In this document: positions 1-17,942 of the stretch, in pieces
How positions within the stretch are numbered: the first letter of the stretch is position 1
Layout: each line of letters opens with the position of its first letter
DNA from: Candidatus Mycolicibacterium alkanivorans
Lineage (GTDB): Bacteria > Actinomycetota > Actinomycetes > Mycobacteriales > Mycobacteriaceae
Assembly (NCBI RefSeq): GCF_022760805.1
Contig: NZ_JAIVFL010000001.1
Span: forward strand, 1,302,001-1,366,000
Direction of reading: 5' to 3'
Length of the DNA: 64,000 bases
Translations under genes and position numbers: made by a program
Notes under the pieces: model-generated
Seen by the model: the letters and a program-made list of their open reading frames with translations, nothing else
What the model was told of the DNA's origin: nothing
Databases searched by the model: none

Positions 1-691
1 ACAGCGCCCAGGTCGCATTGTCCTTTTCCTGGCCGTAGATGGTCATGCCTCGCGGTGCTTCGGCGGCAGCCTTGAGGAGCAGTGAGCCGGAACCGCAGGC
101 GGGGTCGTAGACGGTCTGGTCCTGGCGGGTGTTCGGTCCGATACCGACGACCTTGGCGAGGATGCGCGAGACCTCGGCCGGGGTGTAGAACTGGCCCTTG
201 GATTTGCCGGATTCGGTGGCGAAGTGGCGCATCAGGTACTCGTAGGCATCGCCGAGCAGGTCGTCGCCCTCGGCGCGTGAGCCCCGGAAGTCGAGGTCGT
301 TGAAGATTGTGACGAGCTTGGAGAGGCGGTCCTGCATCTCCTTGCCCTTGCCGAGCTTCTCCTCGTCGTTGAAGTCAGCCTGGTCGATGACGTTGCGCAG
401 GTCGTTGGCTTCGGCGAGCTTGGCGATGATCTTGTTGAAGCGGTCGCCGATCTCCTTGTCGCCCTTGGCGGCGAGCATGTCGTCGAACGAGCCACCCGCG
501 GGCACCTCGATGAGGCTGTTGGCATCGGTCTTGGCTTTGTCAGAGACGTACTTCACAAACAGCAGTGTCAGGATGTAGTCCTTGTACTGGCTAGCGTCCA
601 TTCCGCCACGAAGCTGGTCGCAACTTGCCCACAGCGATGAGTAGAGATCCGACTTCTTCAACGCCACCTGGCGTGCTCCTTTACCTGCCAT
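1..691 (-). CDS. hsdM: Type I restriction-modification DNA methyltransferase subunit HsdM, 5' part only
   Basis: The reading frame starts at the ATG at 691 and runs off the left edge, giving about 230 N-terminal residues. The start region (LKKSDLYSSLWASCDQLRGG) and following helices match the HsdM N-terminal domain. Then come the QFYTP signature and the SAM-binding motif I DPACGSG; the catalytic NPPF motif would lie off the window. HsdM methylates adenine with HsdS and supports HsdR restriction; hsdS and hsdR are presumably further left. Only 113 bp separate it from the recombinase-module gene upstream on the same strand, so its native promoter may have been replaced. No defect is visible in the part seen. 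Confidence 0.93.
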   Translation of the reverse strand, partial: MAGKGARQVALKKSDLYSSLWASCDQLRGGMDASQYKDYILTLLFVKYVSDKAKTDANSLIEVPAGGSFDDMLAAKGDKEIGDRFNKIIAKLAEANDLRNVIDQADFNDEEKLGKGKEMQDRLSKLVTIFNDLDFRGSRAEGDDLLGDAYEYLMRHFATESGKSKGQFYTPAEVSRILAKVVGIGPNTRQDQTVYDPACGSGSLLLKAAAEAPRGMTIYGQEKDNATWAL

Positions 692-804
692 TCCTGCCCG
701 TGGACAGGTCTGATGCGTACCCGCCCGGCGACAAGTTTGTCAGCATCCAGACCATTTCTAGGCAAGTCGGGCTACGCGCGCCCCTCAGGCCATCGGACAT
801 GGCG

Positions 805-1218
805 TCATGGGCCGGCTCCGGTTCGAAGCGGTACGACTTTACGCAGGTCCGGATCGCTTGACCGGAATTGCTGGTTCTCCAGCGCCAAGACCTGGATGAT
901 GCGCTCCAGCTGATGGATCGTCGCCGTGAGCGCACTGACCTCGGCGGTGAGCTCTTTCACGCGCTTCTGAGCATCGGTTTTCTCCTCGCGGAGTGCCTGC
1001 AGGATCGGCGGCTCCGGGTTGGTGCTGGCGATGCGGGCGCGGAATTCGTCTTGGAGGTCGGTATGCCGATGCGTGAGGAGCCATCGTTTGACTCGTGCTT
1101 CCTCGGCGAGTGACTTCACGGTGAGCTTGCCGTCGGAATGCAGCGCCTTGCCCTCGATAAGTCGGTCCATCGCGTCGCGGATCGCGCGGCGCACCCGTTC
1201 GTCAGCCTGGTCGGTCAT
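805..1218 (-). CDS. Small coiled-coil partner of the recombinase trio (TnpC/DUF6262-like)
   Basis: The protein has 137 residues, starting MTDQADERVRRAIRDAMDRL. An N-terminal helical, HTH-like portion (TVKSLAEEARVKRWLLTHRH) is followed from about residue 75 by a heptad-rich coiled coil (KRVKELTAEVSALTATIHQLE). This is the architecture of the small third protein of Tn554-like elements (TnpC, DUF6262), thought to assist or orient the recombinases. The ATG at 1218 is preferred to a longer upstream extension inside the 718-aa gene, which reads as low-complexity shadow. The 17-nt overlap with the upstream recombinase indicates translational coupling. The family assignment rests on architecture and context only. 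Confidence 0.7.
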   Translation of the reverse strand: MTDQADERVRRAIRDAMDRLIEGKALHSDGKLTVKSLAEEARVKRWLLTHRHTDLQDEFRARIASTNPEPPILQALREEKTDAQKRVKELTAEVSALTATIHQLERIIQVLALENQQFRSSDPDLRKVVPLRTGAGP

Positions 1219-3358
1219 CACGGCTCCCCGTTGTTTGATGCTCGTCCACGATGGTTTGGAGGGCGGTGATGCGTTGTTCGAGTCGGCCGCGCAGGGGTAT
1301 CGGCGTTGTAGGCGAGGCGATCTCGGCCTCATGCCGCGCGATGGCGTCCTGCATCTGGTTGATGTTCTGGTCGGTTCGAGCGATGTTGCCGCATCCGGGT
1401 TGGCAGTGTGAAACATCAGGTGAGCGGTGCTGGCTTGCCGTGACCTGCCGGTCGGGGTGGCATAGGGCCTTGGCCTGGTCGTAGCAGCAGGTCACGAACT
1501 GTTGCGGGTTGTCGTAGATCCGCAGTTGCGGGTTGGTGCGCAGCGCGGCTGCCTGCTTATTGCTCAAGTAGCGGCCGCGGAATTGCCGATCGAAGAGGTG
1601 GATGGCCTGGGTGTATCGGTCGGCAGCTGGACCGCTCACCTGCTCACCGTTTTCGAGGCGTTGATGTGCGTCTTCGAGGTAGTCGGCTCGGGCGAGGGCT
1701 TCCTCCATCGGGAAGACGTCTCTGAGGCCGCTGGCGACCCGTGATCCGTAGCCATCGGTGGTATAGCCGCGCAAGTGCCCGTACTGCACGCCGAGGGCCA
1801 CTCGGCCGCCTGGCTTGCGGTAGATGAACCAGGCCAGTGTGCGCCTGAACCGCTTGACGGTCACGGCTTCCTCGGGATCGGCAGGGATCACCTCGTGAGG
1901 ACGTTCGAGCCTCACGGCGGCACGATTGCTCCAATCGATCAAGTCCTGGATGCGGTCCCGAACCATGCGGGCGTGCACGGCCTTTCCCGCGTTGACACCG
2001 CAGGGCCATAGCGAGAACGCGTCGATCGGAAACAGAAGTTGGGAAGTGGGGTTCAGTGCTTCCATCACGGCGACGGCTTTCGCCACCGGCGCGATGGCCA
2101 GCCAGGGTTGTTCCCGTTCGACGCCGACGGGTATTGCGTTGCCCGACTTATCAAGTGCACCTTTGAAGGTTCTGCCGTGAAGACGGTAATGGAGTTGCCC
2201 GGTCGCGGGATCGGTGTGGGTTCGGCAGGAGCCACGCTCCAGTGCGCGGCACTCCTCGCCCCGCATCCCGGTCAGGTAGGCGACGACCACGAACGCAGCG
2301 GTCGCCAGGTGGCGGCACAACTCCTCGACTTCGTAGAAGCCGATCGCCGGCGTCCAGTCTTTCCCGTCGATGGAACCTGTGATCGGCATAGGGAGGTGCG
2401 CTTCGTCGCTGGCACTCAGGCCGGCTATCGGCCAGTGCGAATTCATCACCTGTGTCTCTTCGCGGGACAGACCGAGCTGCCAGCCGATGAATCCCTTTGC
2501 CAGAGAGCGCATGTGCGGCCGATTGGGAGCCACCCACCCAGGCACCGTCTGTGAATCCCGACGCCGCTGCTCGACGTAGGCGCGAAACCTTTGATAGGGC
2601 GTCAGGGCCTGAAGACTCGGCGGGACGTCACGGGGTGTGGCTTTCAGCGTCTTTGCGGCAAGGATGTCGTCGCTGAAGTCGGTGACGAAGCGCATCGCCC
2701 ACACCAGTAGGCCGGCCATCGTCTGCGGATGAATAGGGGTTGTCTTGTTCTCGCTCGACCAGTTCGCAGGGCCGAGCACCGAGGTGCGCCCGATATGGCT
2801 GCTCTCCCATGGCGGTCGTGCGAGGCGATCGACTTCGGGAAGGTACGGAGCGTAGAGCCAGGCACGGGTCACGGCGAATAGCACGTTGCCCACGTTCTCC
2901 CGTGAGCCGCGGTGTCGTTTGAGGTGCTCGGCATACTCGTCGTAGACGTCGCCGGTGACCGCGCAGAACTCGTGAATGTCTCTCTCTGCCAGCCACGTCA
3001 TCCACTGCCTCAGGAATCGCGCGAAGGTGCAGACGGTCGCCGGCGCGAGTTGACTGCGCGCTGCCGAGGAGCGTTCCAGATCCTCTAGCGGCGTCGGCTT
3101 GTTGATGCTCGCCCAGATCAATCGCTTGGCCGTGGCGACATAGCGCGGCGGGAAGGTGTCGAAGACGATGCTCAGCGTGCCCGCCACGGTCTGTTTCTGC
3201 ACCAACGTTGTGAGATCCCAGCGATTGTCGCCCACGGTGGAGAGAATTCCTCGCCGCTTTTCAGGCACGCGCTCGATGTCGGCGATGACCGGTTCGGCGT
3301 CGTCAAGTTCGAGGTGACCAGTCTGCTGTGGCCACGGGCTGGCTGCTGCGGTGCTCAC
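1202..3358 (-). CDS. Third recombinase of the trio: large tyrosine recombinase-like protein
   Basis: The protein has 718 residues. A SAM-like N-terminal core-binding region precedes a catalytic domain with the box I arginine in YLTGMRGEECRALE (about residue 375), an RFRRTLAWF segment in the box II position, and YGHLRGYTTDGYGSR supplying the late H-x-x-R and candidate tyrosine. A cysteine/histidine-rich stretch (VTCCYDQ, LCHPD, CQPGCGN) near the C terminus looks metal-binding, and the tail is coiled coil. Its start overlaps the stop of the 606-aa gene by 4 nt (GTGA type), so it belongs to the same operon. It is much longer than ordinary integrases, as expected for the second or third member of such elements. 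Confidence 0.8.
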   Translation of the reverse strand: MSTAAASPWPQQTGHLELDDAEPVIADIERVPEKRRGILSTVGDNRWDLTTLVQKQTVAGTLSIVFDTFPPRYVATAKRLIWASINKPTPLEDLERSSAARSQLAPATVCTFARFLRQWMTWLAERDIHEFCAVTGDVYDEYAEHLKRHRGSRENVGNVLFAVTRAWLYAPYLPEVDRLARPPWESSHIGRTSVLGPANWSSENKTTPIHPQTMAGLLVWAMRFVTDFSDDILAAKTLKATPRDVPPSLQALTPYQRFRAYVEQRRRDSQTVPGWVAPNRPHMRSLAKGFIGWQLGLSREETQVMNSHWPIAGLSASDEAHLPMPITGSIDGKDWTPAIGFYEVEELCRHLATAAFVVVAYLTGMRGEECRALERGSCRTHTDPATGQLHYRLHGRTFKGALDKSGNAIPVGVEREQPWLAIAPVAKAVAVMEALNPTSQLLFPIDAFSLWPCGVNAGKAVHARMVRDRIQDLIDWSNRAAVRLERPHEVIPADPEEAVTVKRFRRTLAWFIYRKPGGRVALGVQYGHLRGYTTDGYGSRVASGLRDVFPMEEALARADYLEDAHQRLENGEQVSGPAADRYTQAIHLFDRQFRGRYLSNKQAAALRTNPQLRIYDNPQQFVTCCYDQAKALCHPDRQVTASQHRSPDVSHCQPGCGNIARTDQNINQMQDAIARHEAEIASPTTPIPLRGRLEQRITALQTIVDEHQTTGSRDDRPG

Positions 3359-5175
3359 GCGTCGAGTTTCCTTCCGATGAGCGCTGTGACGATGTCGCGG
3401 TCAGTGTCGGTGACGTGGCGGCGGGCATCGCCGATCTCGGCGTTGGTTGCGTGCTGTTCGAGAATCGCTTGTAGACGCGCGTAGTGGTCTCGGTAGTTCG
3501 TCTCCCACCGGGCTGGGGACACGAGCGTGGCGACATTGTCGAGGGCATCTAGCAGCGTGGCCAGGCGCGGCAGATGCTCGGGAGTGATGACTGCGTTCGT
3601 GCAGGTAAAGCAGGCGAAGAATGAGGCCGGGCAGGGTTCGCCGGCGTGGGCGGCGAACGGGCTGTTCAAGAAGTCGGTGCACGCGGTGGTGGCGGTGTCG
3701 AGGCTTCCGGCGAGCAGTAGCTTCAGTGTCGGCACCGGGATACCCAGCTGTGTCGCGGCGGTTTCCGGGTCGGTGCGTGCGGCGGTCACTTCAGCAGCAT
3801 TCAGCGAGCGGATCGTGACCGTGGCTTTGGCATGAGCCACTGCATCGGCTTGTCCGTCAATGATGGTGTCGGCGGCCCCTTCGGCGGTGGCCGGGTCTGG
3901 GGTTCGATAGATGTCTTCGCTGACGGATTCGCTGTTTTGCCGGGCATGTTGGTTCAACACCTGCTCGGACAATCGCAGCCGTCGCAGACTCACCCGCAAG
4001 GGTGTCCCGTCGTCTGCCAACAGGCCGGCATCGGCCATGTAGTGATCGCCGATGCCCGCGGTCAACCATTCCTGCCGGAACGGGCCATCGTCGGTGAGGT
4101 TCTTGTGCCGGTGGGCGATGAGTAACTTCTCCGACGGGGTTCCGAGCTCTGCCAGTGCGGTGCGGCATGGCTCGGTCAAGCGGACGGCATTCTCCCATAG
4201 CTTTCCGGCCTCGCCAGCGAGGATTTCTGCGCTGTAGCGCTTGGTTCCTCTTCTCGGTTTGTCGGTGTTGACGGTGTATACAGAGTCTTCACCGGCACCG
4301 TCGGATGCTCTGAACGAGGTGACCGTGAGGTTGTCCATGACGGAGAGGTTGAATCCTCTTTCGCACACGAGAAGGACCATCAAGCAATAGATTTCCCGTA
4401 TCGACGGGAACAGCGCCTGCGCCGGATTCGACACGCCAGTCAGATCGAAGCCGCCCTTGAGGACCACCCGGTTCGCGAGGTACTGCGAGGGAAGCATCCC
4501 ATTTCGCGACAGATATTCCAAGAGCGATCCGGTGCTCCACCGCTCCCCGCCGACATTGAACGTGATTCCGTCACCGACATCACCAACCTCGCGGTACCGG
4601 TGCAGCCTCTCGGTGTTGGTCCGCATTCTGCGGAGCGCTCGACGTACCTCACCCTTGGCCGCACTGCGGATCCGCCCGAACTCGTCGCGACTGTAGGAAT
4701 CATTCTCCGGCAAGCGTTTCCGAGGCTTCACGGCCTTCGCTCGCATCGCCTTTCGTGTGGTTTCGGGGAGTCGCGGCGACTCCGACAGCACGGTCCGCAT
4801 GAGGTTCACTTGCCCCGGCCAACGGGCCTGGCTTTCCTTGACAGTCCGCCACGCCCACCACACCTCGGGACCGAAGTCGGTGATCGAGTGAACCTCGGGG
4901 AACTCTGTGCCCAGATAGGCAATCAGTTGTCGTACGGCACTCACCGCCGCATCGACGGTCGCCAGTGTGTGCCAACGGCCACCGGATTGGGAACCGTTCG
5001 CCAGCGCGGTAACGAGGTCGTCGATCAGTTCAACGGGCCCGTCGACGTCATCGAATGAGAATGTCCTCGTGCGTCCCGCCTCGTCGGTGAAGCAGAGCCG
5101 CCGAAGCTCAGGGTCTGCCAGGGCGGGCCGGGCGTACTTGCCCGCCGGGAGTGCCGCTGTTCTACGCGAGGCCAC
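3355..5175 (-). CDS. Second recombinase of the trio: divergent tyrosine recombinase-like protein
   Basis: The protein has 606 residues. Its middle resembles a degenerate tyrosine recombinase: a box I-like CERGFNLSVMDNLT and a box II-like VSLRRLRLSEQ, where the usual H-x-L-R histidine is not evident. A C-terminal Cys cluster (CPASFFACFTC) resembles a zinc site. It starts 3 nt after the stop of the 501-aa recombinase and ends overlapping the 718-aa gene. The weak catalytic signature suggests a structural or DNA-binding role within a multi-protein recombination complex rather than strand cleavage. That role is inference. Confidence 0.7.
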   Translation of the reverse strand: MASRRTAALPAGKYARPALADPELRRLCFTDEAGRTRTFSFDDVDGPVELIDDLVTALANGSQSGGRWHTLATVDAAVSAVRQLIAYLGTEFPEVHSITDFGPEVWWAWRTVKESQARWPGQVNLMRTVLSESPRLPETTRKAMRAKAVKPRKRLPENDSYSRDEFGRIRSAAKGEVRRALRRMRTNTERLHRYREVGDVGDGITFNVGGERWSTGSLLEYLSRNGMLPSQYLANRVVLKGGFDLTGVSNPAQALFPSIREIYCLMVLLVCERGFNLSVMDNLTVTSFRASDGAGEDSVYTVNTDKPRRGTKRYSAEILAGEAGKLWENAVRLTEPCRTALAELGTPSEKLLIAHRHKNLTDDGPFRQEWLTAGIGDHYMADAGLLADDGTPLRVSLRRLRLSEQVLNQHARQNSESVSEDIYRTPDPATAEGAADTIIDGQADAVAHAKATVTIRSLNAAEVTAARTDPETAATQLGIPVPTLKLLLAGSLDTATTACTDFLNSPFAAHAGEPCPASFFACFTCTNAVITPEHLPRLATLLDALDNVATLVSPARWETNYRDHYARLQAILEQHATNAEIGDARRHVTDTDRDIVTALIGRKLDA

Positions 5176-5178
5176 CGC

Positions 5179-6684
5179 TCATTGCTCCTCGGCGTCAACA
5201 ATTCCGGGAGCCGCCGCTGCGATGTTCGTGATGAAATCGGCGATCGAGGCATCCTCGGCCACGTCGTCATTGAGGAACAGGTCCACCTGCAGGCCCGACA
5301 CCGGTTCGAGATAGCAGTTGCGAGTGGTTTCCACGTTCACGTGGCCCAGTAGCGTTTGAACCAAAACCCAAGGGTCACCGAAGATGTGGCGATACTCGCG
5401 CCGCTCGGCAGGGGTGATGCCCATCTTGCGTTCGTGTGCGTAGATCAACGTGACCAACATCCTCAGGGCGAACGAGTGGCGTAGCATATGCGGGTGACAA
5501 TGGATGTCTACCCCAAGGGTCTGACACCGCATATTGGCCGTGGTGAAGATCGCTTCCCAGGTGCGGTAGGGCATCGGCAGACCGGCTTCGGACAGCCACA
5601 CCATCCAGGGTTCAAGCCCGCGATCAGTGGTGATGTAGAAGTTGAGCCGATCATTCGCGTCGAGACTGTCCAGCGGTACCGTCCCCTTGCTGCCGTCCCG
5701 GTCGGTGAAGTGGACGCGGCGGTGATGGTCCACCGTGTCGACGATCTTGATGTCGGTCAGCGCGTCATAGCGCCCCTCAGATCGGGCCCGGTGAACCGCT
5801 GCCGCGCGGGTTGAAATGACGTAGTTGTCAATGCTTTTCAATGCTGCGGCACTGATCCAGAAATCACGGCCGCGACCCTTCGCCACGGCTTGACCGACTC
5901 GGGCCTTGGCGTAACGCACGTCGCTGTCGGCGTTGGGGATTTCTCCCAGGACCAGCGTTCCGGCCTCACGCAGTCGCAGTCCGCTCGACCACAGTGCTTC
6001 GGCGAACGCCAGGTTGCGGCCGTCGTTGCGTCCTCGCCAAATCGCATCCCGGCGCCCGTCGCTGCGGTAGCCGCCGAGGCCCACGTCGCGCCAGCGCTTG
6101 AAGGCCCGAGGCGTCAGCCACTTCAATTGGACCGAGCGGACAGCACTCGGTTGCAACCGCGTGGAGCCTGAGTCCCCAGCCGAGCTGGGTTTGTGCAGGG
6201 CGACAGGAGAAACAGCCACGTTGCCGCGCCACTGTTGCCAGTCGTAGAACTTCTTGATCGCAGCCAAATCCCGTGAAAACGTGGCCGCACCAACTCGATC
6301 CGGGTTCTGCTGGTCGCGTCGCCGCCAGAACTCATAGTCGGCGAGATGCTCGAATGTGGCAGCCCTCCAGTCGATGTCTTGAACGGAGAGGAAGGAGAGA
6401 AACAGCTGGATGTCCGGGGCATAGGACTCCTGCGAGCCGGCCGCCAACGATTGGAACGCCGCCGACCGGAAGAACTCCAGAACCTCAACGTCCGGCCGGC
6501 CATCGGCCATCAGGAGAAACGGCTGCCCGGGACGTATTCCGAGCGCAGCCTCACGCTCGGCTAGATCCGGGAAGTCTGCAAGGACATCGGACCTCGCGGT
6601 GTGCGACCGGCTAGGCTGCCGCGCCCAACACAGCCTCCAGCGGGAGCCGTCGTCGTGTTGTTCCACAGCAACAGAACCTGCCAC
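5179..6684 (-). CDS. First recombinase of the trio: catalytically complete tyrosine site-specific recombinase
   Basis: The protein has 501 residues with a GTG start at 6684. The core-binding domain is at about 70-165. The catalytic domain carries box I arginine in SSGLRLREAG (R237/R239), a lysine near 269, HPHMLRHSF (H399-x-x-R402), LLGH (H448) and the nucleophile Y458 in TTRNCYLE. All catalytic residues are therefore present, making this the likely strand-cleaving enzyme of the element. The start lies about 20 bp inside the presumed right end of the element. An upstream gene fragment ending in NPPF in another frame shows that the ribosome would have to restart here. Confidence 0.88.
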   Translation of the reverse strand: MAGSVAVEQHDDGSRWRLCWARQPSRSHTARSDVLADFPDLAEREAALGIRPGQPFLLMADGRPDVEVLEFFRSAAFQSLAAGSQESYAPDIQLFLSFLSVQDIDWRAATFEHLADYEFWRRRDQQNPDRVGAATFSRDLAAIKKFYDWQQWRGNVAVSPVALHKPSSAGDSGSTRLQPSAVRSVQLKWLTPRAFKRWRDVGLGGYRSDGRRDAIWRGRNDGRNLAFAEALWSSGLRLREAGTLVLGEIPNADSDVRYAKARVGQAVAKGRGRDFWISAAALKSIDNYVISTRAAAVHRARSEGRYDALTDIKIVDTVDHHRRVHFTDRDGSKGTVPLDSLDANDRLNFYITTDRGLEPWMVWLSEAGLPMPYRTWEAIFTTANMRCQTLGVDIHCHPHMLRHSFALRMLVTLIYAHERKMGITPAERREYRHIFGDPWVLVQTLLGHVNVETTRNCYLEPVSGLQVDLFLNDDVAEDASIADFITNIAAAAPGIVDAEEQ

Positions 6685-6703
6685 AACACACCGACATTCT
6701 ACG

Positions 6704-6745
6704 GAAGGGCGGGTTGCCGATGACGACGTCGAACTTCTTGCTCAT
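6704..6745 (-). pseudogene. 5' stub of a DNA adenine methyltransferase cut after its NPPF catalytic motif
   Basis: An ATG at 6745, one base after the stop of the upstream helicase gene, begins MSKKFDVVIGNPPF. This is the canonical start of Eco57I-type methyltransferase halves that carry motif IV (NPPY/F). The next codons (RRMSVCCGRFCCC) bear no resemblance to the family, and the sequence passes into the recombinase-trio element. The rest of the gene (normally several hundred residues with the target-recognition domain) is not found in the window. I conclude that an insertion or associated deletion truncated it right at the catalytic motif. Confidence 0.75.
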
Positions 6746-6746
6746 G

Positions 6747-9700
6747 TCAGTTGCCTCCCGTCAGCATGTCGTCGACCGTCTTCTGCCGTTCCGCCTTGCT
6801 CATCCGGGCCAGGTCTCCGATCCTGAAGTGACCGGACTCCTCGATCCACGCCTTTCGTTCCGACACTCCGCCGGAGACGGCCTCGATGGTGATGCGATGC
6901 AGGATCGCGTTGTGACTCATCTCGAAGATCTGAGAAGTCAGGATGTGCCGTAGCCTGACATCCTGATCCGGGAAGACACTGGCAAGGCCGGTGTCCAGGC
7001 GCCGCACGAGCTCCATCAAGAACAGCCCGGCCGTGGAGAACAGGTCCGCGAAAGTCTTTGTGGGGTCGGTAAAAACGTCCGGGTCCTCAGTCTCGAGGGT
7101 GTCGACCATCATCTTCACGACTGGCGACGGGGTGAAGACAAGCGACGTCTTCTGCTGCGGGATGTAGGCGAAGATGTCCTCGGTCTGCGCATCGTCAAAG
7201 TAGTCCGCAAGAGCCGCCTTCTTGTCCAGGAACTCGCGGATGGCCTCATCAAAGACGGCTTCGTCGAACAACCCCGGGATCATCGCTACAACGCCGTTCT
7301 CGTCGGTTACTTCCTGACCGTCGCGTAAGAGGCGAAACTCGGCTTCGGTGATCCCTGTGATCTCCTCGAACACGTCATCGGGGGTGTAGTCGTCGAAGTT
7401 TGAGAGCCGGATACCAACGTCGCCATATGCCATGAGAAACATTGGAATCGTTCGCGCGAAGCCTCGTAGGTGCGACCGTGCGTCCTCCATCGCCTGATTT
7501 GCGCGCTTTTGCTCCTTCCTTGTCTCCTCGCGCGTAACCACCTCTGGCACAATCGATTCCATCGTTCCGTCGACGATGTCGAGGATGCCCTTCTTGAACG
7601 CTTCGTCCTTCTCAGCCTTCTTGGCCTCAACGGCCTGGGCCTCAGCCTCGGTGGCCGCGTTTTTCAGTTCGTTATCGAGGTGCTTGCTGGCGATGTTGTA
7701 TTCGGTGTAGGCGCGCTCAACTTGGTCCTTCACGGATTGTTCGGTCCGCTTCTCATCGCGCTCGACCTCCTTGGCCGTGAGCCCGTATGTTTCCTTCAAC
7801 TCCTGACGCTTCTCGCGGCTCTGCTCAATGACCGACTTCGCGATCTGACTCGCTGCCGTGTACGCGGGTGTATCGGGTTCGACAGTCGCGATGTCCTCGG
7901 AGCTATATACGGGTTTACCGAGCTCGGCGACTTTGGAATTGATGACTGTCTCTACGTCGACCTGGACGTTCCCGTTTGGGTCGGTGACGGGCGGTGGGTG
8001 GGGGATCTCGATGCCTTGCCCGGTGGAGACCTTGCCTTGCTTGGCGGAGGGCAATTTGTCGAGGATCTTCGTGACGTGTTCGGAGTAGCGGAAGATCCCG
8101 GCGACATTCGCGAACAGCAGGTTCGATAGGAACCCGCGTCGTACGACCTCGCGGGCTTTGAAGACTTGCGGGAAGGTCAGTACCTGGGAGGCGTCCAGTT
8201 CGATCATCCGACCCGCGGAGTCTTCTCCCAGCACGGGGAAGAAGTTGAGCAGCCGGCGGATGTTCTGCTGCCGAACGACCAGGTCGCCTGAGGGATTCGG
8301 GTTCAAGTTATTCGCGAAAGCGTCGAAAATCGTGAGTGTGCGCTCCGGTGCGAAGTCAAATATGTAGGCGTTCTGCTTCTGGAACACCTGCCCGGCACGC
8401 TCGAAGGTGCAGGGGTTTTGCGCCCGGAACGCCGCTTGCATATACGCAGCCGGCGACGAGAGGTTGGAGAGCATTATCACCGCTGTCCATTCGGGCACCG
8501 TGACACCGGTGGTCAGCTGGCCGACTGACAGGGTGATGGTCTTGCCACCAGTCTTCTCTGCATCGCCGATCGCCTTTCGGACCTTCTCCAGCGACTTGCC
8601 TACGGCGACCGGGTCATTGTCGTCGTAGGAGCGCCCGTCACCTGCAGCCAGGATGACGGTGTAGTCCTTGAAGACCTCGTGATTCTTCAGCAACCGCTGC
8701 AGCGCCTTGGCTGACGCGACGCGGTTGAGCAGCCAGAAGGAGTGACGGATCTCCTCTCGGAGTGCGGGCGTTGAGAACGGGTATTTGTCGTTGGTGGTCA
8801 TGCAGTTGAGGAACTTGATCACATCGGTTTCGTGCTCGAAAAACCCGGTCTCCTTTGTCGCGAAGAACTCGTTGAGATCGAAAGCGAAGTCGATGTTGGC
8901 CTCGTCTTCATCGATGGCGACGCCCTCGGATAGGCGGTCGGTAATCATCCGGGAGATCTGGTAGGTCAGCAGGTTGAGCGTCGGCAGTGCCGCGTAGGGA
9001 TTCTCCCGAGCGTCGTCTTCCCACTGATGGCGGGCAACCTGTTCGTCCTCGTAGGTCCAGTTGAAAATCTGGTCTGGGCCGAACCTGCCCGACGCCAGCG
9101 CCTTGAATGGCGTGCCCGACAGGTGCAGCGTCCGCTGCCGCTTGATCTGATCGAACGCGACGTCCGTCTTGGTGGTGACGATGCCTTCGTGGGCCTCGTC
9201 GATTACCAGCAGGTCCCAGTCGACCTGAGCGATGTGTTGGAGCTTGTCATAGGAGCCGCCGAAGTACTGCGAACCCTTCAGGTCTTGCAGTGAAATGAAC
9301 TCGACGATGCGCGGATGATCATCCTGATGGTTGGCGGAGTAAGCGCGCCACTGCTCGCGCGTCATTGGAGAACGACCGGCCAGGGAAGGTGACTCGGACA
9401 CAAATCGAAAGGTGGTCTGGTGGGCGATAAAGCGCGCGAAGTCGTCGTACCAGGAGTTCGCGATCGCCGGGCGGTTGGTGACGATCAGCACCGTGCGGAC
9501 GTCCAGGGTCCGCATCAGCTCGTAGGCCGTCAGCGTCTTGCCGAACCGGGGTTTGGCGTTCCACAGCACCTCGGCCTTCCCTTCCTGGAAGGCGTCGACG
9601 GCCTGATCCACGGCCGCCTGCTGCTCGGGACGAAGGACGTAGTCGTCCTCCACGCTGTCGCTTCGAAATTGGGTGAAGTCCTGGCCTGCGAAGTCGTTGA

Positions 9701-10052
9701 AATACTCCTTCGACGTCTTAGGGGCCGTCGCGAAGTTATGCCACTCTGTCCGCGGGCTGATCTCGCGTTCAACGCGTTGCTGCTTGAGGTAGGCGTGGAA
9801 GTCTGTGTCCGTGAATCGTCCGCCGGCTTCCGTCATGTACATCGCACGACGGGACCAGACGATCTCCTTCCTGATGGACATTTGGCTGGCCTGCTGGGCG
9901 ACGCGCGTGTCTGCGCTGGCCTGCTCGGTGTAGCCGATTTTTTCCCAGCCGTCGTACTTGGGAACGTCGGGGGTTTTCCAGGAATAGATGAGCGGAACGA
10001 TCTCGCGGAACGTTCTGATATCCGGACTAGCCACCGATCCTCGCTTGCTCAT
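6747..10052 (-). CDS. GIY-YIG-like nuclease / SF2 helicase / methyltransferase-half fusion protein (restriction enzyme)
   Basis: The protein has about 1,101 residues. Residues 20-95 look like a GIY-YIG nuclease of the T5orf172/MUG113 type: PLIYSW, then GWEKIGYT and a conserved R in ADTRVAQQ, and a later E. Residues 140-560 form a superfamily 2 helicase: Walker A in NAKPRFGKT (166-173), VIDEAHEG, LSGTPFKA. A long charged coiled coil follows. The C terminus has FTPSPVVKMMVDTLE and DLFSTAGLFLMEL, the first half of an N6-adenine methyltransferase with a modified motif I, and it lacks NPPY. ATG 10052 overlaps the upstream methyltransferase gene by 26 nt; GTG 10034 is an alternative. The next gene begins 1 nt downstream and would have supplied NPPF. 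Confidence 0.85.
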   Translation of the reverse strand: MSKRGSVASPDIRTFREIVPLIYSWKTPDVPKYDGWEKIGYTEQASADTRVAQQASQMSIRKEIVWSRRAMYMTEAGGRFTDTDFHAYLKQQRVEREISPRTEWHNFATAPKTSKEYFNDFAGQDFTQFRSDSVEDDYVLRPEQQAAVDQAVDAFQEGKAEVLWNAKPRFGKTLTAYELMRTLDVRTVLIVTNRPAIANSWYDDFARFIAHQTTFRFVSESPSLAGRSPMTREQWRAYSANHQDDHPRIVEFISLQDLKGSQYFGGSYDKLQHIAQVDWDLLVIDEAHEGIVTTKTDVAFDQIKRQRTLHLSGTPFKALASGRFGPDQIFNWTYEDEQVARHQWEDDARENPYAALPTLNLLTYQISRMITDRLSEGVAIDEDEANIDFAFDLNEFFATKETGFFEHETDVIKFLNCMTTNDKYPFSTPALREEIRHSFWLLNRVASAKALQRLLKNHEVFKDYTVILAAGDGRSYDDNDPVAVGKSLEKVRKAIGDAEKTGGKTITLSVGQLTTGVTVPEWTAVIMLSNLSSPAAYMQAAFRAQNPCTFERAGQVFQKQNAYIFDFAPERTLTIFDAFANNLNPNPSGDLVVRQQNIRRLLNFFPVLGEDSAGRMIELDASQVLTFPQVFKAREVVRRGFLSNLLFANVAGIFRYSEHVTKILDKLPSAKQGKVSTGQGIEIPHPPPVTDPNGNVQVDVETVINSKVAELGKPVYSSEDIATVEPDTPAYTAASQIAKSVIEQSREKRQELKETYGLTAKEVERDEKRTEQSVKDQVERAYTEYNIASKHLDNELKNAATEAEAQAVEAKKAEKDEAFKKGILDIVDGTMESIVPEVVTREETRKEQKRANQAMEDARSHLRGFARTIPMFLMAYGDVGIRLSNFDDYTPDDVFEEITGITEAEFRLLRDGQEVTDENGVVAMIPGLFDEAVFDEAIREFLDKKAALADYFDDAQTEDIFAYIPQQKTSLVFTPSPVVKMMVDTLETEDPDVFTDPTKTFADLFSTAGLFLMELVRRLDTGLASVFPDQDVRLRHILTSQIFEMSHNAILHRITIEAVSGGVSERKAWIEESGHFRIGDLARMSKAERQKTVDDMLTGGN

Positions 10053-10674
10053 GAATCTGGTCGATCGGGCACTCCGCGAAAGTGTCGTAGGCGGTGAAGT
10101 CAATCATGCTGTCCTCGCGCAGCGCGGCAAATTTGAACGGCTCGCGCTGAACCATCGCGGCGGCCCCGACGATCCGGTTCCACCACGAAAACTGGAGCTC
10201 CTCACCAAGCCAGGTCAGGCCTGTGAGGGTGTCGCCGCGAACGATGTTGGTGTCGATAAGAAATGCCGCAGCTCGCCATAGGTTCGTGGTCGTACGGCAC
10301 GGAACGTCGTGGCTGGTGTGGAAGCGCACGAACTCCTTTAGCATGGCCTGCTTGGCGTCTCGGTGGTTGTCCTCCAACAACTCGATGCCGTAGATCGACG
10401 CCAAAGCGAACAGGGACTCCTCGGCCCATGTCTTCGGCGGGTACCGCTTCTCGATCGCGCTGAGTTTCCGTTGCAGGATGGCGACAAGGAAGTTGCCGTG
10501 ACCGGCCGAGGGCTCAAGGAAGGTCTTGTCGACGAAATCCGGGCCGGCTTCCAACTCGTCTCGAACCAGGTCGAGCATCCGGTGGACCATGTGACGGGGC
10601 GTGAAAACCTCACCGTAGGTCTTCACTCGGTGACGGGACTTTACCGCCTGCTCCTCAACGATCGCTTGCGTCAT
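10027..10674 (-). CDS. DNA methyltransferase half carrying motifs X and I, first gene of the restriction-type operon
   Basis: The protein has 215 residues. YGEVFTPRHMVHRMLDLV is the usual FTP region, FLEPSAGHGNFLVAIL is SAM motif I, and IYGIELLEDN carries the motif II acid. No NPPY/F catalytic motif is present and the length is half that of a complete enzyme, so it should need a partner. The truncated gene at 6745 (NPPF) is the natural candidate. It overlaps the nuclease-helicase gene, so the two are co-translated. With that partner destroyed, methylation by this system is probably lost. This is inference from motif content. Confidence 0.85.
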   Translation of the reverse strand: MTQAIVEEQAVKSRHRVKTYGEVFTPRHMVHRMLDLVRDELEAGPDFVDKTFLEPSAGHGNFLVAILQRKLSAIEKRYPPKTWAEESLFALASIYGIELLEDNHRDAKQAMLKEFVRFHTSHDVPCRTTTNLWRAAAFLIDTNIVRGDTLTGLTWLGEELQFSWWNRIVGAAAMVQREPFKFAALREDSMIDFTAYDTFAECPIDQIHEQARIGG

Positions 10675-10808
10675 CGGTCTCTCCCGTCCACACCGCGGGG
10701 AGTCACTGGCGGAGGCGCGGCGCTCTCCATTCTGCAGGTCGAGTCCCCTCCCGCCAGACGCTGGGACCGTCCCGACGCTTTGCTCATGTTCGCGCTCGCT
10801 TTCGAGAC

Positions 10809-10864
10809 GTCACCCCCGAGGGGGCGAGTCGACGCGAACGCATCCGATGTCACCCCTGTCACCC
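10809..10864. promoter_or_regulatory. Triple GTCACCC motif, possible operator
   Basis: GTCACCC occurs at 10,809, 10,849 and 10,858, and the first copy is followed by CCCCGAGGGGG, a short palindrome. It lies 135-190 bp upstream of the methyltransferase start. Restriction operons are often controlled through short repeated operators, but no controller protein is visible, so the role is a guess. Confidence 0.25.
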
Positions 10865-11087
10865 AACCATTGTGTCGTAACCCTGCGACACTGACCCTCA
10901 TCGACATGGACTGCACTCGATCGTTGTCCCCCACGCCCAACGTCTAGGGACACTGCACGACCGCTGATCAACACCAGCCATCGAGTCCTCATGGACGGAC
11001 CGCCCTACCGACCCCGGAAACGACCACGGCCAGCCACCACCTGACAAGCCGTCGCACCACCGGCCCAGCAGCAGCGCCCGAACACGG

Positions 11088-11125
11088 GGAATTACGTGAC
11101 GGCAACCCCTGAGGAATTACGTGAC
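11088..11125. repeat. 13-bp direct repeat GGAATTACGTGAC, two copies
   Basis: GGAATTACGTGAC occurs at 11,088-11,100 and 11,113-11,125, spaced 25 bp start to start, and both copies are followed by a G/C-rich G. Closely spaced direct repeats like this are typical of the ends of IS21-family elements in actinobacteria, so this may be a solo relic end. No transposase gene is nearby. It could equally be a regulator-binding site. Confidence 0.4.
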
Positions 11126-11159
11126 CGTCGGCACTTATGGTGGCAGACTGAAAGGGGAG

Positions 11160-11531
11160 TCAGTCTGTGTAGTTAAAGGGTTGCAGGCCAGCAACTCTCA
11201 TCAGAATCACTCGTGCTCCGTAAAACTTCCGAAGTACCTGACTCAAGTCACGGGCGGCATCCGCCAACTGTGAGCGGGACACGGGGTCGCCCAGCGTGGA
11301 AAGCGCCTCGGTTGCTTCCTGAAGGGCTTCAAGGTATTCGATGACGTCGCTTGTATATCTGGCGGTCGTGATTGCGGTGGCGTTGCCGGGCCGGCGGAGG
11401 TGATCGCGCATGAGACCAACCCAGTCTTTGATTGTCCGTTGATCGAACTTGTGTAAGGCGGTGAGGATCCATCGACGCAAGACTGGTTGGCGCCTTGGAA
11501 GTGAGTGGAGTAACGGTGACGGAGCGTTCAT
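11160..11531 (-). CDS. Hypothetical 123-aa protein with a decayed paralogue at 18.2-18.4 kb
   Basis: The product is a helical, basic protein that I do not recognise. Its C terminus (SRSQLADAARDLSQVLRKFY, ending FNYTD) closely parallels the tail of the broken reading frame at 18,193-18,420 (RHQLADAALDLKSALDGLYE, ending VTYD). There is no signal peptide or membrane segment. It lies downstream of the protease gene (104-bp gap) on the same strand, so it may be the last gene of the ATPase-protease operon. Its recurrence on both sides of the island end suggests a family associated with mobile elements or defence. No function can be stated. Confidence 0.6.
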   Translation of the reverse strand: MNAPSPLLHSLPRRQPVLRRWILTALHKFDQRTIKDWVGLMRDHLRRPGNATAITTARYTSDVIEYLEALQEATEALSTLGDPVSRSQLADAARDLSQVLRKFYGARVILMRVAGLQPFNYTD

Positions 11532-11635
11532 AGCCCGACGCTACGACTGCCGAATCGACTCTAGCAACGCCCAAAGCCCACCGATCTGAAGTTCTTAGGG
11601 CGTACGCATTCGGCCGAAAAATACTGGGCGAGGGG

Positions 11636-14197
11636 CTATGTCGCGGTGATCTCGGTTTCGATCGGGATCTGCAGCTGTGTAGCGATCGGGGTGTAAAGGT
11701 CTATCCCTAGTTCCGCTGTTCTCAACGACAGAATGAGCGCGTACCGGACTGGAAGATCCTTCCGATCGCTCCGGCCGTTGTTCTTCCACCAACCCCCGAC
11801 TGGGAATACAGCGACTGAGTTGCAGCGCGCCAGCTCACTCCCGGATCCAGTCCACTCGTCCTGGTGGAGCGACCCAAGGTTGCGTTGCTGCTCACCGAGG
11901 AGCCATCGGTCAGTTGTCGTTGCTCCGCCGGCTCCTCCGTCTTCCTGTACTTGCGCATCGCGATTGATGCGGTTTATGAATTCCTGACGGGTCTCGACTT
12001 GGCCCTGAAGGTCGAAACGCAGCGAGTGTGAAGCGTACGCATACCGATTTCGCCAGCCCCGACGCGAAGCTGAGGGCTCGATGAAGTAAGACAGGGTGAT
12101 TCGCAACCGCACATCCGCGGCGCCGAGTTCCTCAAGCGCCTCGCGCGGCCATGGCAAGGTGTGGAGCCGGAACTGCCTCATGTGGAAGTCCGCGCCTTCG
12201 AACGGGACGAACTGGTCTTGAGTGACGAGAGTGACTGCCCGCGTTGAAGAATTCAGCACCGCATCCTCCTTCGGCGCACCCCAGCCGTAACGCCGTAGTT
12301 GTTCGAGGCGCTTCTTCTTCCCCTGAGGGGGATGGATCCTCCGATCCATCGCGGGCGTCCAGTCCGCCTCGTGGGTCAACAATCCCCGGATGGACTCCGG
12401 CCAGTAGGCGGGGTATCTGTCCATAGCCAGCACGGCGAGACGCGCGGCTTGGGCAGCGGCGGCGCTTGTGGCATTTGCAGAGGTCAGGGCAATGTCACTC
12501 GTATTACTGGTGGAGCGCAGGGAGAGGATCGGCAGTTTGTCCTCGAACATCTGCCCGCCGTCGGTGAGGACATTTCCGCCCTCCATGCAGATATCCGGCT
12601 TTATCGGTGTCTTCCGGTGCTTGAACAACATCGATGTCCGGCTATGTGGCGACAGTTCTCCGGGCTCGGCGAGAGGTTTCCAACCGGCGTACTGGGGATG
12701 CTGGGGAGTCTCTGTCATTTCGGTGTAGGCGCCAACCGTCAAAGCGTTCCATGCTTGTGCGGGGTCTTCGATAGCAGACAGGTCCGAGTTGGTGAGGTGA
12801 TCACCGACGTAGGCGTCGACATTGCCCGCCGCAACAACGATCAGCCGGGAAGCGTCAGCGTCCGGTAACGAGATCAGTCGAAACTGGTCACCGTCGCGAT
12901 CGGAGTCAGTGCCCACCGCCAAGGCGTCGATCGCAGCCGACCACAGTGTGGGCTCACCTGGATTGTCCGGCTCGGCGCTGAGCGTCAGTGCGAACACCCG
13001 CGGGCGATCGGCCGTGATCTCCGGCAGCGCAACGGCCTGGACTGTGGCGCTCCCGTCGTCCAGCGGATCCAAACTCGCTTCATCGGGTCCTGGTTCCATA
13101 CGAACCGATTCGAGGCGATGGCGCAGTCGGATCGGTTCGGCACTCTGTAGCGCGGCATCGAGGTCTCCAAACAGCGCGATGCCGGCCATAGATGTGCCGT
13201 GTCCGTAAGGGTTCATGTCGGTGCCGGAAGTGCCGATGACAGTGTGCAGGTCAGACTGGTCTAACGACGCGGCGAGAAGTACATGGTTGCGAAACACCCC
13301 GGTGTCGAGATGGCAGACGGCCGGCGCGTCATCGTCGGCCGCACTAAGGCGCTCGGCAAGTTCGGAAACGTATTCTCCCTGCTCAGCGGTTGAGAGGTCC
13401 TCGATTGTTTCGATGAATTCGGGCCGTCGAATTTCTGCTACGGGCACAGCGGTGAAAGGCAATGGTTGGAGCTCGGCCCAACTAGCTTCAATCCAAAAAA
13501 CAGCGCGGTCACGAAATCGGAACGACCGCGACTGTATCCGAAGTTCGTGTGCGACAGCGTAGCCACGGATAATGTCCACGTGCGCGCTGGCCGTGTCCAG
13601 CCAGAGTTCCCACCAGTGCCGGCCATGTCGAGGCGGCTCTCCCTCCGACGTCCACAGGTCATCCAGGACTGCGGAACGGATGCGTGAGATGTTGGCAACC
13701 AGGTCTTGGTTTTTGGGATTGCCTTTCTTCGTGTTCTCGGCGAGATAGTCCTCGAAGAGCTTCATGAATGCTGCGCGGTGTTTGTCCGAAACCCACACCG
13801 TCGCTCGCTCGGGTTCTGTCTCCGTCGCCGGCCGCACTGAAAGGAGTAGCCACCTCGGCTGTTTGGGTACCTTCTGGTGCCTGGTCAGGCTGTTGAGGGA
13901 ATCAAGTTTTAGCGGATAAGCGGCACCTTCCCCCTCAAGCACGACGATTGTGCCCTGCGCCCCTAGCTCGTCGTCGGTGAACTCGGTGGCCACGCGCGCG
14001 GCCTCAGAGGCGGTGAATGACTCTTCGAGCTCACCGTTGAGGGCAGCTCCATGCGAAGCGCGATTGACCTTGCGCCGTTTGCTAGGGCCGCCACCTCCGT
14101 CGGCGTAACGACGGAACTCCTCAGAACCCGAATATCCCTGAACGTAGAGATGGTCGTACTGTTCTCCCCCGGCTGTCGAGTCGCCCCCTTCAGCCAA
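11636..14197 (-). CDS. ietS: Subtilisin-like serine protease of an IetAS-type defence module
   Basis: The protein has 853 residues and is an S8-family peptidase. Catalytic Asp298 is in VCHLDTGVF, His333 in YGHGTSMAG, Asn459 in VVAAGN and Ser578 in SANATSAAAA. A long N-terminal domain of about 280 residues precedes the protease and a beta-rich domain follows. There is no signal peptide, so it acts in the cytoplasm. Its start overlaps the AAA ATPase stop by 8 nt. An AAA ATPase followed by a cytoplasmic subtilase of this size is the defining layout of IetAS, known as an anti-phage system and earlier as a plasmid stability pair. Assignment is by architecture. Confidence 0.8.
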   Translation of the reverse strand: MAEGGDSTAGGEQYDHLYVQGYSGSEEFRRYADGGGGPSKRRKVNRASHGAALNGELEESFTASEAARVATEFTDDELGAQGTIVVLEGEGAAYPLKLDSLNSLTRHQKVPKQPRWLLLSVRPATETEPERATVWVSDKHRAAFMKLFEDYLAENTKKGNPKNQDLVANISRIRSAVLDDLWTSEGEPPRHGRHWWELWLDTASAHVDIIRGYAVAHELRIQSRSFRFRDRAVFWIEASWAELQPLPFTAVPVAEIRRPEFIETIEDLSTAEQGEYVSELAERLSAADDDAPAVCHLDTGVFRNHVLLAASLDQSDLHTVIGTSGTDMNPYGHGTSMAGIALFGDLDAALQSAEPIRLRHRLESVRMEPGPDEASLDPLDDGSATVQAVALPEITADRPRVFALTLSAEPDNPGEPTLWSAAIDALAVGTDSDRDGDQFRLISLPDADASRLIVVAAGNVDAYVGDHLTNSDLSAIEDPAQAWNALTVGAYTEMTETPQHPQYAGWKPLAEPGELSPHSRTSMLFKHRKTPIKPDICMEGGNVLTDGGQMFEDKLPILSLRSTSNTSDIALTSANATSAAAAQAARLAVLAMDRYPAYWPESIRGLLTHEADWTPAMDRRIHPPQGKKKRLEQLRRYGWGAPKEDAVLNSSTRAVTLVTQDQFVPFEGADFHMRQFRLHTLPWPREALEELGAADVRLRITLSYFIEPSASRRGWRNRYAYASHSLRFDLQGQVETRQEFINRINRDAQVQEDGGAGGATTTDRWLLGEQQRNLGSLHQDEWTGSGSELARCNSVAVFPVGGWWKNNGRSDRKDLPVRYALILSLRTAELGIDLYTPIATQLQIPIETEITAT

Positions 14198-15158
14198 GGG
14201 TTGCCGATCGACGAGCCTTCAGAGCCACGATGACGTCCTCTCGCTCCACCTGTGTTTCGCCACGCATGAGCACAGCTTTGGCCGCCGACTCGGCAGCTTT
14301 GACGAGATCAGCATGGCTTAGGCCGTCGGTGTACCTGCCGAGTTTGGTCAAATCTGTCTTGGCAGCCAGTGAGCCGAGCCGTCCCCGCATGACCGTCACG
14401 GCCTGACGCGCATCCGGAAGCGTGTAGTCGAGGACCATGTCGAACCGGCGGAACAACGCCTTGTCTAGGATCGCGCGGTGATTCGTGGCCGCGATGACGA
14501 TTGACTCCGGGCTTGAGTTCTCAAGGAAGACAAGAAACGAGTTGAGTATCCGGCGGGCCTCGCCGACATCGTTTCCGGAACGATCCGCGCCCAACGCATC
14601 GAACTCGTCGAAAAGATAGACGGCGCGCTCAGCAGCCACAGCGTCGAACACGACACGTAACTTTGAGGCTGTTTCGCCCATGAACTTGCTCAGCAAGCCA
14701 TCGAGACGCACGGTGTACATCGGTAAGGAGAGCTCGGTCGCAAGCACCGACGCCGTCATTGTCTTCCCTGTGCCGGGCGGACCTTCTAGAAGCAAACGGT
14801 GTGACGGCGCGAAGCCGTGTTCGAGAAGGTTCTTTCGCTGACGCTGCTCTGCAAGGATCTGCTTGATCTGGGCGATGCGCTCGGCCGGGGCAACGAGTTC
14901 TCGTAGTTTGACCTGCGGATTCGAGACCTCGACGAGACCAGCCAGATCACCGCGGACTCGAGGAAGGGTGGTGACGTTGGCCAACGGTGCACGTTCGCGC
15001 GACGAGTCCACTGCCTTTTTGATGTTCGCGGCAAGTACGTGGTGTCCTTGGCGGGCTTCTCGCGCGGCGATCTGGAGTGCCACGGAATAGAAGGCTGCAT
15101 CGTCGCCCGCTGCGTGATTTCGAACCATCGCGGTGATGTGTTCGCCCAGCCCAGCCAT
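14190..15158 (-). CDS. ietA: AAA ATPase of an IetAS-type defence module
   Basis: The protein has 322 residues. Walker A GPPGTGKT is at 126-133, Walker B YLFDEFDALG at 181-190, sensor 1 ATNHR, and an arginine-finger region LFRRFD, which is a classical AAA domain. The N-terminal 90 residues are helical and would serve substrate or partner binding. I chose ATG 15158 because a strong AGGGGAGG ribosome-binding site lies just upstream. It overlaps the subtilase gene, so the two proteins are produced together. The ATPase is presumed to regulate the protease; the phage trigger is unknown. Confidence 0.8.
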   Translation of the reverse strand: MAGLGEHITAMVRNHAAGDDAAFYSVALQIAAREARQGHHVLAANIKKAVDSSRERAPLANVTTLPRVRGDLAGLVEVSNPQVKLRELVAPAERIAQIKQILAEQRQRKNLLEHGFAPSHRLLLEGPPGTGKTMTASVLATELSLPMYTVRLDGLLSKFMGETASKLRVVFDAVAAERAVYLFDEFDALGADRSGNDVGEARRILNSFLVFLENSSPESIVIAATNHRAILDKALFRRFDMVLDYTLPDARQAVTVMRGRLGSLAAKTDLTKLGRYTDGLSHADLVKAAESAAKAVLMRGETQVEREDVIVALKARRSATLG

Positions 15159-15330
15159 TTCGCCTCCCCTCCGTCGCCGGTAAATAATGTGTCTCTGATG
15201 GTACGGTCCCAGCGCCATCCGACACTTGGCGTCGGATGATTCGGGGGTGTCGGGCCCAGAAGGGTCTCCACCTGCCGTTTTCCGTGCCAACCAATCTCCT
15301 TGGGATCCAACTAGGCGCTAGTTCGGATGC

Positions 15331-17203: not shown

Positions 17204-17395
17204 TCAGGACTGTCGGCGACTAGGGCTATCGCTGATCCCGCGTTTGTCGTGCAGGCCGCCGAGTACGTAATCCAGCTCGAAGAGAATCCCGGACCCCCGC
17301 GCGGGCGCGTACGCCTCCTCGGTGGGCAGCTGCAGCAGAAAGTCACGCCGAAGGCTCGGCACAAGGGCGCAGGTGTCGAGGACGGCGCGATACAC
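17204..17395 (-). pseudogene. Truncated PIN-domain toxin
   Basis: The frame from a GTG at 17395 encodes YRAVLDTCALVPSLRRDFLL, the start of an actinobacterial PIN-domain toxin (first catalytic Asp in LDTC), through GSGILFELDYVLGGL. It then ends after 63 residues at a TGA. Family members are about 180 residues long and need three more acidic residues, which are absent. It directly follows the intact antitoxin gene. The toxin is therefore probably dead; the 3' part was likely deleted near the island boundary. Confidence 0.65.
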
Positions 17396-17426
17396 AGGGG
17401 CGAGTCTTTCAGACGCGGCGGATAGG

Positions 17427-17942
<516 letters not shown>

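Follow-up and report, generated by a model that had tools for sequence, protein, structure and literature searches.

The window, a stretch of 64,000 nucleotides of Candidatus Mycolicibacterium alkanivorans (contig NZ_JAIVFL010000001.1, positions 1,302,001 to 1,366,000), holds a three-gene operon at positions 6704 to 10674. The locus is probably a disrupted copy of an ATP-dependent restriction-modification (R-M)-like system that is widespread and has a fragmented methyltransferase, the disruption being due to a mobile island that homes to catalytic-motif codons. The operon is of predicted nuclease-helicase-methyltransferase type with the methyltransferase spread over three protein pieces, namely gene 1, the final part of gene 2 (the p-half) and gene 3. 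Gene 3, as read from the DNA, is not lost; it is interrupted at the proline codons of motif IV by an island of the GInt type. The sequences firmly establish the make-up and conservation of the operon, the states of its motifs and the insertion.

Composition of the operon

Gene 1 (10027-10674(-), 215 amino acids) corresponds to the S-adenosylmethionine (SAM)-binding first half of an amino-methyltransferase. It contains the segments GEVFTP, LEPSAGHGNFL, YGIELLED and NIVRGDTL, which we take to be methyltransferase motifs X, I, II and III, respectively. Motif IV (NPPY/F) is absent. PADLOC MTase_II was matched by gene 1 at 5.1e-12 and the match to MmeI_Mtase (E 0.0017) fell short of the cut-off.

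Gene 2 (6747..10052(-)) combines a GIY-YIG domain, a superfamily 2 (SF2) helicase, a coiled coil and the p-half, and is 1,101 amino acids long if the ATG at 10052 is used. The mechanical open reading frame (ORF) is 6747-10103(-) with 1,118 amino acids. The gene 2 homologues among the 120 matches listed span 1,077-1,105 amino acids, which makes a start near 10043-10052 probable. The match to ResIII of Pfam had E 1.7e-15. The structural model of gene 2 (mf22290693213) has a predicted local distance difference test (pLDDT) score of 82.4 and a predicted template modelling (pTM) score of 0.73. The GIY-YIG-type nuclease domain lies at 9732..10016(-) (residues 10-104 in the 1,098-residue numbering), the SF2 helicase/translocase core at 8124..9647(-) (about residues 133-640), the coiled-coil helices, placed by the secondary structure of the model, at 7455..7865(-) (about residues 727-863), and the p-half, a degenerate SAM half with DLFSTAG as motif I, at 6747..7166(-) (about residues 960-1098).

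The GIY-YIG-type family MUG113 was matched by gene 2 of the window at E 0.0027, which is under the Pfam cut-off. Among 37 gene 2 members, 17 matched T5orf172 and 7 matched MUG113 in Pfam. Tyr20, Lys35-Ile36-Gly37, Arg47, His83 and Glu100 are invariant in 12/12, which agrees with the residues expected of GIY-YIG nucleases. The region is modelled as beta-beta-alpha-beta-alpha-beta, and the fold search was run on the gene 2 model as a whole. The profile of this part gave one chance-level match and no credible solved relative in the PDB. PDB sequence searches with the gene 2 and chain profiles gave no match.

Gene 3 starts with the ATG at 6745, one base past the stop of gene 2. Its left fragment, MSKKFDVVIGNPPF (6704..6745(-)), ends with a codon (6704-6706) that is element sequence and is followed by 30 foreign residues to a stop. 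In intact relatives gene 3 supplies NPPY and the target-recognition part, and its Pfam family is Eco57I only.

These results agree with an earlier note made from the letters alone, which had described gene 1 with motifs X and I and no NPPY/F, and had read gene 2 as a GIY-YIG-like domain, a helicase, a coiled coil and a second methyltransferase first-half, with the intact operon having its own nuclease and translocase. Motifs II and III of gene 1 are added here.

Interruption of gene 3 by a GInt-type element

The remainder of gene 3 is a 351-residue ORF at G000:C1:1291664-1292719(-), outside the window and about 16 kb from the stub. The Arthrobacter gene 3 used as query gave one match in the genome, over residues 11-346, at G000:C1:1291667-1292668(-). 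Intact copies are present in other bacteria. The left junction reads target AAC, then CCGCCC, then TTCCGTA..., and the right junction reads ...TGTACGGAA, then CCCCCA, then TAC. A Pro-Pro codon pair therefore stands at each end of the insertion. Comparison of the two junctions suggests a 6-bp overlap, whose left copy of the two proline codons is at 6707..6712(-). The left fragment reads NPPF and the right fragment reads EPPY, so NPPY is kept by neither.

The earlier note had called gene 3 a mere stub. This holds within the window, where gene 3 is visible solely as a 44-codon stub, and would fit a simple deletion beside unrelated recombinase genes. Such a deletion is practically ruled out by the remainder at the other end of the element, and the junction pattern repeated in relatives also counts against it. 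The Phe of NPPF, which had been assigned to gene 3, belongs to the element end. The insertion into gene 3 should abolish both the methylation and the site recognition of the operon.

Recurrent target of the element

The element encodes a TnpA/GinA-like tyrosine recombinase of 501 amino acids (5179..6684(-); Phage_integrase 2.6e-9) whose relatives were used to find other insertions. TnpA relatives were taken from genomes (10/397 at 1e-60; 17/297 at 1e-90) and from plasmids, where 66 records match and 6 were opened. The class-wide search of 394 genomes at 1e-90 found TnpA in the window only, and the scan of the viral collection for TnpA gave no match. Close relatives were defined by TnpA identity of about 50% or more and a readable left flank. 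There are 16 of them including the window (L060, L071-L075, L121-L129, and L137); L130 was omitted from the junction count for want of flank.

The [ND]PP[YF] catalytic motif is common to almost all DNA amino-methyltransferases. The left flank of 15 of the 16 close relatives is an amino-methyltransferase frame at [ND]PP. The sequence [NDS]PPF stands 31 bases ahead of the TnpA start in 14/16; the distance in L074 is 13 bases by alignment offset, and L075 has a one-base frameshift within the motif. Ten left fragments were scanned for families. They belong to type ISP (L071, L072, and L075), HsdM (L073 and L124), Eco57I/PglX-like (L128), HSDR_N with N6_Mtase (L129), and DUF1156 (L137), and no family was matched by those of L074 and L125. 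By sequence reading, L125 is ISP-like and L127 is HsdM-like.

Both junctions were read for five insertions. CCNCCN stands at both ends, from which the 6-nt overlap is deduced, and the right side of each continues the same kind of methyltransferase as its left side. The five right junctions lie in gene 3 of the window, Type_ISP_C (4e-90, M. poriferae), N6_N4_Mtase (2e-16, Gordonia), and a DUF1156-like and an HsdM-like gene, the last two assigned by sequence. On G780:C5 (L138 and L139) a pair of elements is separated by about 11 kb. One sits within an HsdM gene and the other within a DUF1156 methyltransferase gene, and they are possibly nested.

Three observations weigh against a preference for motif IV. 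L071, L121, L122, and L126 share one target site. L123, with a TnpA of 93% identity, is inserted at SPPF outside any methyltransferase frame and is the sole exception among the 16. The motif is at the insertion in 0/17 distant TnpA relatives (33-46% identity; L061-L070, L076, and L131-L136), in a scan where the recombinase start was taken from the alignment and not from annotation. The motif IV habit thus belongs to one clade.

The pattern could also be one of survivorship, where the element inserts at short sites anywhere and only insertions into dispensable defence genes persist. We consider this rather unlikely. The loss of defence genes is tolerated, L123 is outside a methyltransferase gene, and there are 17 copies of the 12-bp site RAYCCNCCNTAY in the 4.05 Mb genome of the window (27 for the reversed control pattern), all of which agree with survivorship. 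However, the same two codons are found at both junctions in 5/5 fully read cases from unrelated methyltransferase families, and L123 is the only close relative found elsewhere.

Size, distribution and permutations of the family

At least 7,997 homologues of gene 2 were found in the protein search. The genome set consists of 50 loci, of which 46 (L003-L048) were tallied for gene order; L011 and L012 look alike. Gene 1 adjoins or is fused with gene 2 in 46/46. A gene 3 homologue is present in 45/46, being separate downstream in 39, fused downstream in 3 and upstream in 3. L035 lacks gene 3 and has a shortened gene 2. Two near-duplicate loci of Tetrasphaera australiensis (L049 and L050) hold only the final part of gene 2 together with gene 3, and a full copy is present in the same record.

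Five modules (gene 1, GIY, helicase, p-half, and gene 3) were assigned by hidden Markov model (HMM), with overlapping matches of gene 1 and the p-half resolved. All five modules are present in 44/50 genome loci, 6/6 plasmid loci opened and 24/40 viral-collection loci. Only the GIY match is missing in another 8 of the 40 viral-collection loci. Gene 2 matches were found on 83 plasmid records (Enterococcus 33, Lactococcus 9, Arthrobacter 2, and others), of which 6 were opened.

The modules are also found fused and permuted. Genes 2 and 3 are fused in all three Bacillota plasmid copies opened (1,417-1,456 amino acids). Genes 1 and 3 are fused in L040 (Macrococcus). The homologues of this fusion among the 120 matches listed, itself included, have 625-653 amino acids and cover 98-100% of the L040 protein, and the organisms named for them are mostly Streptococcus. 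Twenty proteins among the matches listed (P0242-P0257, P0260, P0270, P0271, and P0289) exhibit a single-chain form that runs from helicase through p-half and gene 1 half to gene 3, and 17 of the twenty have a precomputed T5orf172 match. A second, deep clade was identified in 20 loci on viral-collection contigs (L091-L097, L100-L109, L111, L113, and L114), with best segments 31-34% identical. Gene 1 comes first in it and is followed by a p-gene 3 protein of about 520 amino acids (split over two frames in L101) and a helicase protein. A GIY match is present in 12/20 of its loci. The p-half of the second clade has a zinc-ribbon-like insertion (CSK..C.YCG). The separate, fused and permuted forms all keep both first-halves, so the family is not one in which homologues are always encoded as a complete methyltransferase elsewhere.

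Motif states and pairing of the methyltransferase pieces

Motifs were read from HMM-aligned rows that include close relatives (300, 185, and 244 distinct rows for the p-half, gene 1, and NPPY sets, respectively). The first Gly of motif I in the p-half is replaced in 331/331 (T 167, K 164). The Asp before it is kept in 330/331 and the last Gly in 331/331. The motif II position of the p-half is Glu in 167/331, and otherwise G (123), A (38) or I (3). In gene 1, motif I retains its Glu and its first Gly in 226/226, and the motif II acid is E in 217 and D in 9. The Asn of NPPY in gene 3 is kept in 314/319. The exceptions are Glu in 2 (L002 and L059, right fragment of the window genome) and gaps in 3 fragments (L045, L048, and L058). 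These states place the SAM signature and the catalytic motif on different pieces throughout the aligned set. The p-half and gene 3 taken together also lack the combination of motif I GxG and NPPY in one protein by which a gamma amino-methyltransferase is recognised.

The NPPY half is paired with the p-half of gene 2, and not with gene 1, by an AlphaFold 2 (AF2) model and by covariation. In the AF2 competition model (L042 chain), the matches to CamA, M.TaqI, M.BseCI, and METTL5 begin at residues 103-129, which is in or just before the p-half, and are without the N-terminal helical domain. The METTL5 match has 183 residues aligned over 114..511. The covariation alignments have 194 and 212 rows with effective sequence numbers (Meff) of 97 and 74, which are few, and related sequences are included. 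The model and the covariation support a methyltransferase core formed by the NPPY half and the p-half, like that of type ISP enzymes LlaBIII and LlaGI. The earlier note had proposed two motif I halves and one motif IV half sharing one active site. The three halves are present in intact relatives, but one active site shared by all of them is unsupported as stated, since NPPY is paired with the p-half.

Several observations weigh against this assignment. In the AF2 alignment, rows for p-gene 3 outnumbered those for gene 1. The root-mean-square deviation (rmsd) of the PDB chains is large, at 5-6 A for the best matches. LlaBIII aligns over 133..1098 of the gene 2 model with an rmsd of 17.9 A, so that the domain arrangement is not superposed. 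When the loci are used alone (74 rows), the best p-half beta1-beta4 pair ranks 14, and the gene 1-gene 3 beta1-beta4 pair ranks 64 of 19,000, which is weak yet above shuffles. The second Gly of motif I in gene 1 is Ala in 136/226. Gene 1 is not seen in L049-L052, the rest of the 50 genome loci, which are fragments or contig-end cuts, and it is undetected in L049 and L050 although flank is present. Gene 1 is also undetected in 6/40 viral-collection loci (L083, L085, L087, L098, L110, and L115); some of these are end-cut, but several kb of flank are present in L083 and L110.

Another arrangement would make gene 1 and gene 3 the active methyltransferase, with the p-half as a decoy by which gene 3 is kept inactive and restriction-competent. 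In gene 1 alone, both the first Gly and the acidic residue of the SAM motifs are conserved without exception. Naturally occurring fusions of gene 1 to gene 3, and chains of the p-gene 1-gene 3 type, put the intact half before NPPY, and the kept Asn of NPPY leads one to expect methyl transfer. Set against these are the AF2 matches that start at the p-half, the covariation that favours p-gene 3, and the second clade that fuses the p-half and not gene 1 to gene 3. We regard this arrangement as improbable. The L040 fusion was tried as proof of a shared fold and was dropped, since gene 1 keeps its own tail there and the fusion shows association only.

The p-half and gene 3 could instead make up an ordinary methyltransferase that itself binds SAM despite the T/K of motif I, leaving gene 1 as a regulatory or structural duplicate. 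The AF2 model and the covariation would fit this, as would the Asp and Gly kept on either side of the lost Gly, the motif II Glu where it is present, and the loci without detected gene 1. It is doubtful, however, in view of the p-halves in which the motif II acid is missing, and of gene 1, which is present in all 46 tallied genome loci with its SAM motif kept. The reading carried forward is that of a p-half and gene 3 core accompanied by gene 1 as the SAM half.

Comparison with known systems

In type ISP enzymes the nuclease is followed along the chain by an SF2 motor, a coupler and a gamma methyltransferase. The operon resembles them (LlaGI and LlaBIII) in the order of SF2 motor, coupler and gamma methyltransferase, with a large rmsd for LlaBIII, and in the structural matches to gene 2 and to the p-gene 3 core. 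The earlier note had likewise found parts that resemble known restriction enzymes. However, the operon has a GIY-YIG-type domain where type ISP has an N-terminal Mrr nuclease, and the Mrr family is absent from the ten Pfam families matched by the 37 gene 2 members. ISP_coupler is unmatched in those members and Type_ISP_C is unmatched in gene 3. The methyltransferase of the operon is cut after motif III and has an extra SAM-half subunit, gene 1. Type ISP is one polypeptide, whereas most loci here are made up of three genes, or of two where gene 1 stands apart.

The DnmA-YeeB-YeeC system consists of an adenine methyltransferase, an SF2 helicase and a T5orf172/GIY-YIG nuclease; the methyltransferase is complete and MmeI-type, and the helicase and nuclease genes are separate (PMC9973331). 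The operon resembles this system in parts and hardly in sequence, and has no complete MmeI-type methyltransferase. BLASTP against a look-alike of this system (L072/L120, named by resemblance) gave E 0.21 for gene 2, E 0.004 for gene 1 around motif I only, and E 0.076 for gene 3 around NPPY only.

A literature search, with most subscription journals and bioRxiv outside its coverage, found no named system for the operon, in line with the earlier note, and no report of a three-piece methyltransferase or of insertion into methyltransferase motif IV. The available parts of PMC8432527, PMC12602166, PMC1564403, and PMC8713573 concern other systems and not this operon.

Tn554-type transposons undergo multi-recombinase site-specific insertion with a 6-bp core. 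The element is like them in this respect and differs in target and cargo. Islands of the GInt/Tn6571 family have three recombinase genes and a small protein, cargo, imperfect flanking repeats and an overlap of about 6 nt, and carry defence systems; the targets named in the available parts of these reports are an ABC transporter gene and ssb, and the word methyltransferase occurs 0 times in the main text of PMC5385486 (PMC5385486, PMC10121019). The element of the window is like GInt in gene order, cargo, end repeats and 6-nt overlap, a likeness drawn from gene order and overlap. It differs from GInt in that its clade sits in methyltransferase motif IV and in that its 3' end is not AT-rich (GC 0.58 in the last 100 bp and 0.64 in the last 500).

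Structure and cargo of the element, and neighbouring genes

The window part of the element is 1..6706(-). The element runs on to about G000:C1:1292660, for a total of about 16.0 kb. Between the halves of gene 3 come TnpA, the 606-residue and 718-residue genes and a small gene, followed by hsdM, hsdS and hsdR and then by a metallopeptidase-like gene and an 800-residue gene. The cargo names follow the homologous annotated element of M. poriferae, except for the 800-residue gene. The TnpB/GinB-like protein (606 amino acids, 3355..5175(-)) and the TnpC/GinC-like protein (718 amino acids, 1202..3358(-)) are candidate recombinases by position; nothing in Pfam was above the cut-off for the former and nothing was matched by the latter. 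The small protein (805..1416(-)) is GinD/Tn554 TnpC-like by position and has sub-threshold coiled-coil-type Pfam matches only. The four-gene order of the GInt operon is thus present, with a recombinase Pfam match in TnpA alone. The third recombinase of a distant R. opacus relative is annotated as a site-specific integrase.

The cargo hsdM (817 amino acids, type I methyltransferase by sequence) starts at 1..691(-), and its rest, hsdS and hsdR are outside the window. The 800-residue cargo gene (L002 8778-11180) lies in the interval that separates the type I R-M genes from the right end, and neither Pfam nor NCBIfam gave a match for it. Two other genomes share the recombinase module (about 5.8 kb) at 89-90% identity, and the alignment to them does not extend past the module. 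The annotated type I R-M cargo of the M. poriferae element has 84-87% DNA identity to the window cargo. The R. pyridinivorans element carries an MmeI-type methyltransferase, DEAD helicase and GIY-YIG set that resembles DnmA-YeeB-YeeC (L072/L120, NZ_CP096039.1 435-6054). The Gordonia element carries an NgoFVII-type endonuclease with a methyltransferase.

Beside the operon, at 11636-15290 of the window, there is an anti-phage pair of subtilase and AAA ATPase (PADLOC IetS 3.4e-32 and IetA 1.1e-67). Proteins resembling tyrosine integrase, FtsK, GntR and rolling-circle-replication proteins flank the region (L002 1-4500 and window 15331-18000), which is presumably an actinomycete integrative conjugative element. 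Rfam gave no match on window 1-15400.

Proposed mechanism and significance

In the intact system, the motor and the p-gene 3 core would recognise the site as in type ISP, and gene 1 would supply or sense SAM. The complex would methylate its own sites, and methylated sites would be spared. At unmethylated sites the motor would translocate and the GIY-YIG domain would cut. In this genome, a GInt-type element with a type I R-M system has recombined into the motif IV proline codons of gene 3, and its own R-M cargo now stands there. Since modification and recognition would be lost together, the insertion need not kill the cell, which may explain why such targets are tolerated.

We tentatively propose, as a possibility that falls a little short of probable, that one GInt clade has evolved to recognise the codons of [ND]PP[YF], landing in host R-M systems, silencing them and substituting its own R-M cargo. 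One victim would be a family in which SAM is provided by a separate half-domain subunit to a core without a SAM motif.

Annotated 'truncated' methyltransferases that end in NPPF may be element junctions. If the proposed reading is true, a very common R-M-like family, for which the literature search found no name, has its SAM site and its catalytic motif on different proteins. An island that targets the motif would explain turnover of defence islands, with conserved catalytic codons as the attachment site in many hosts.

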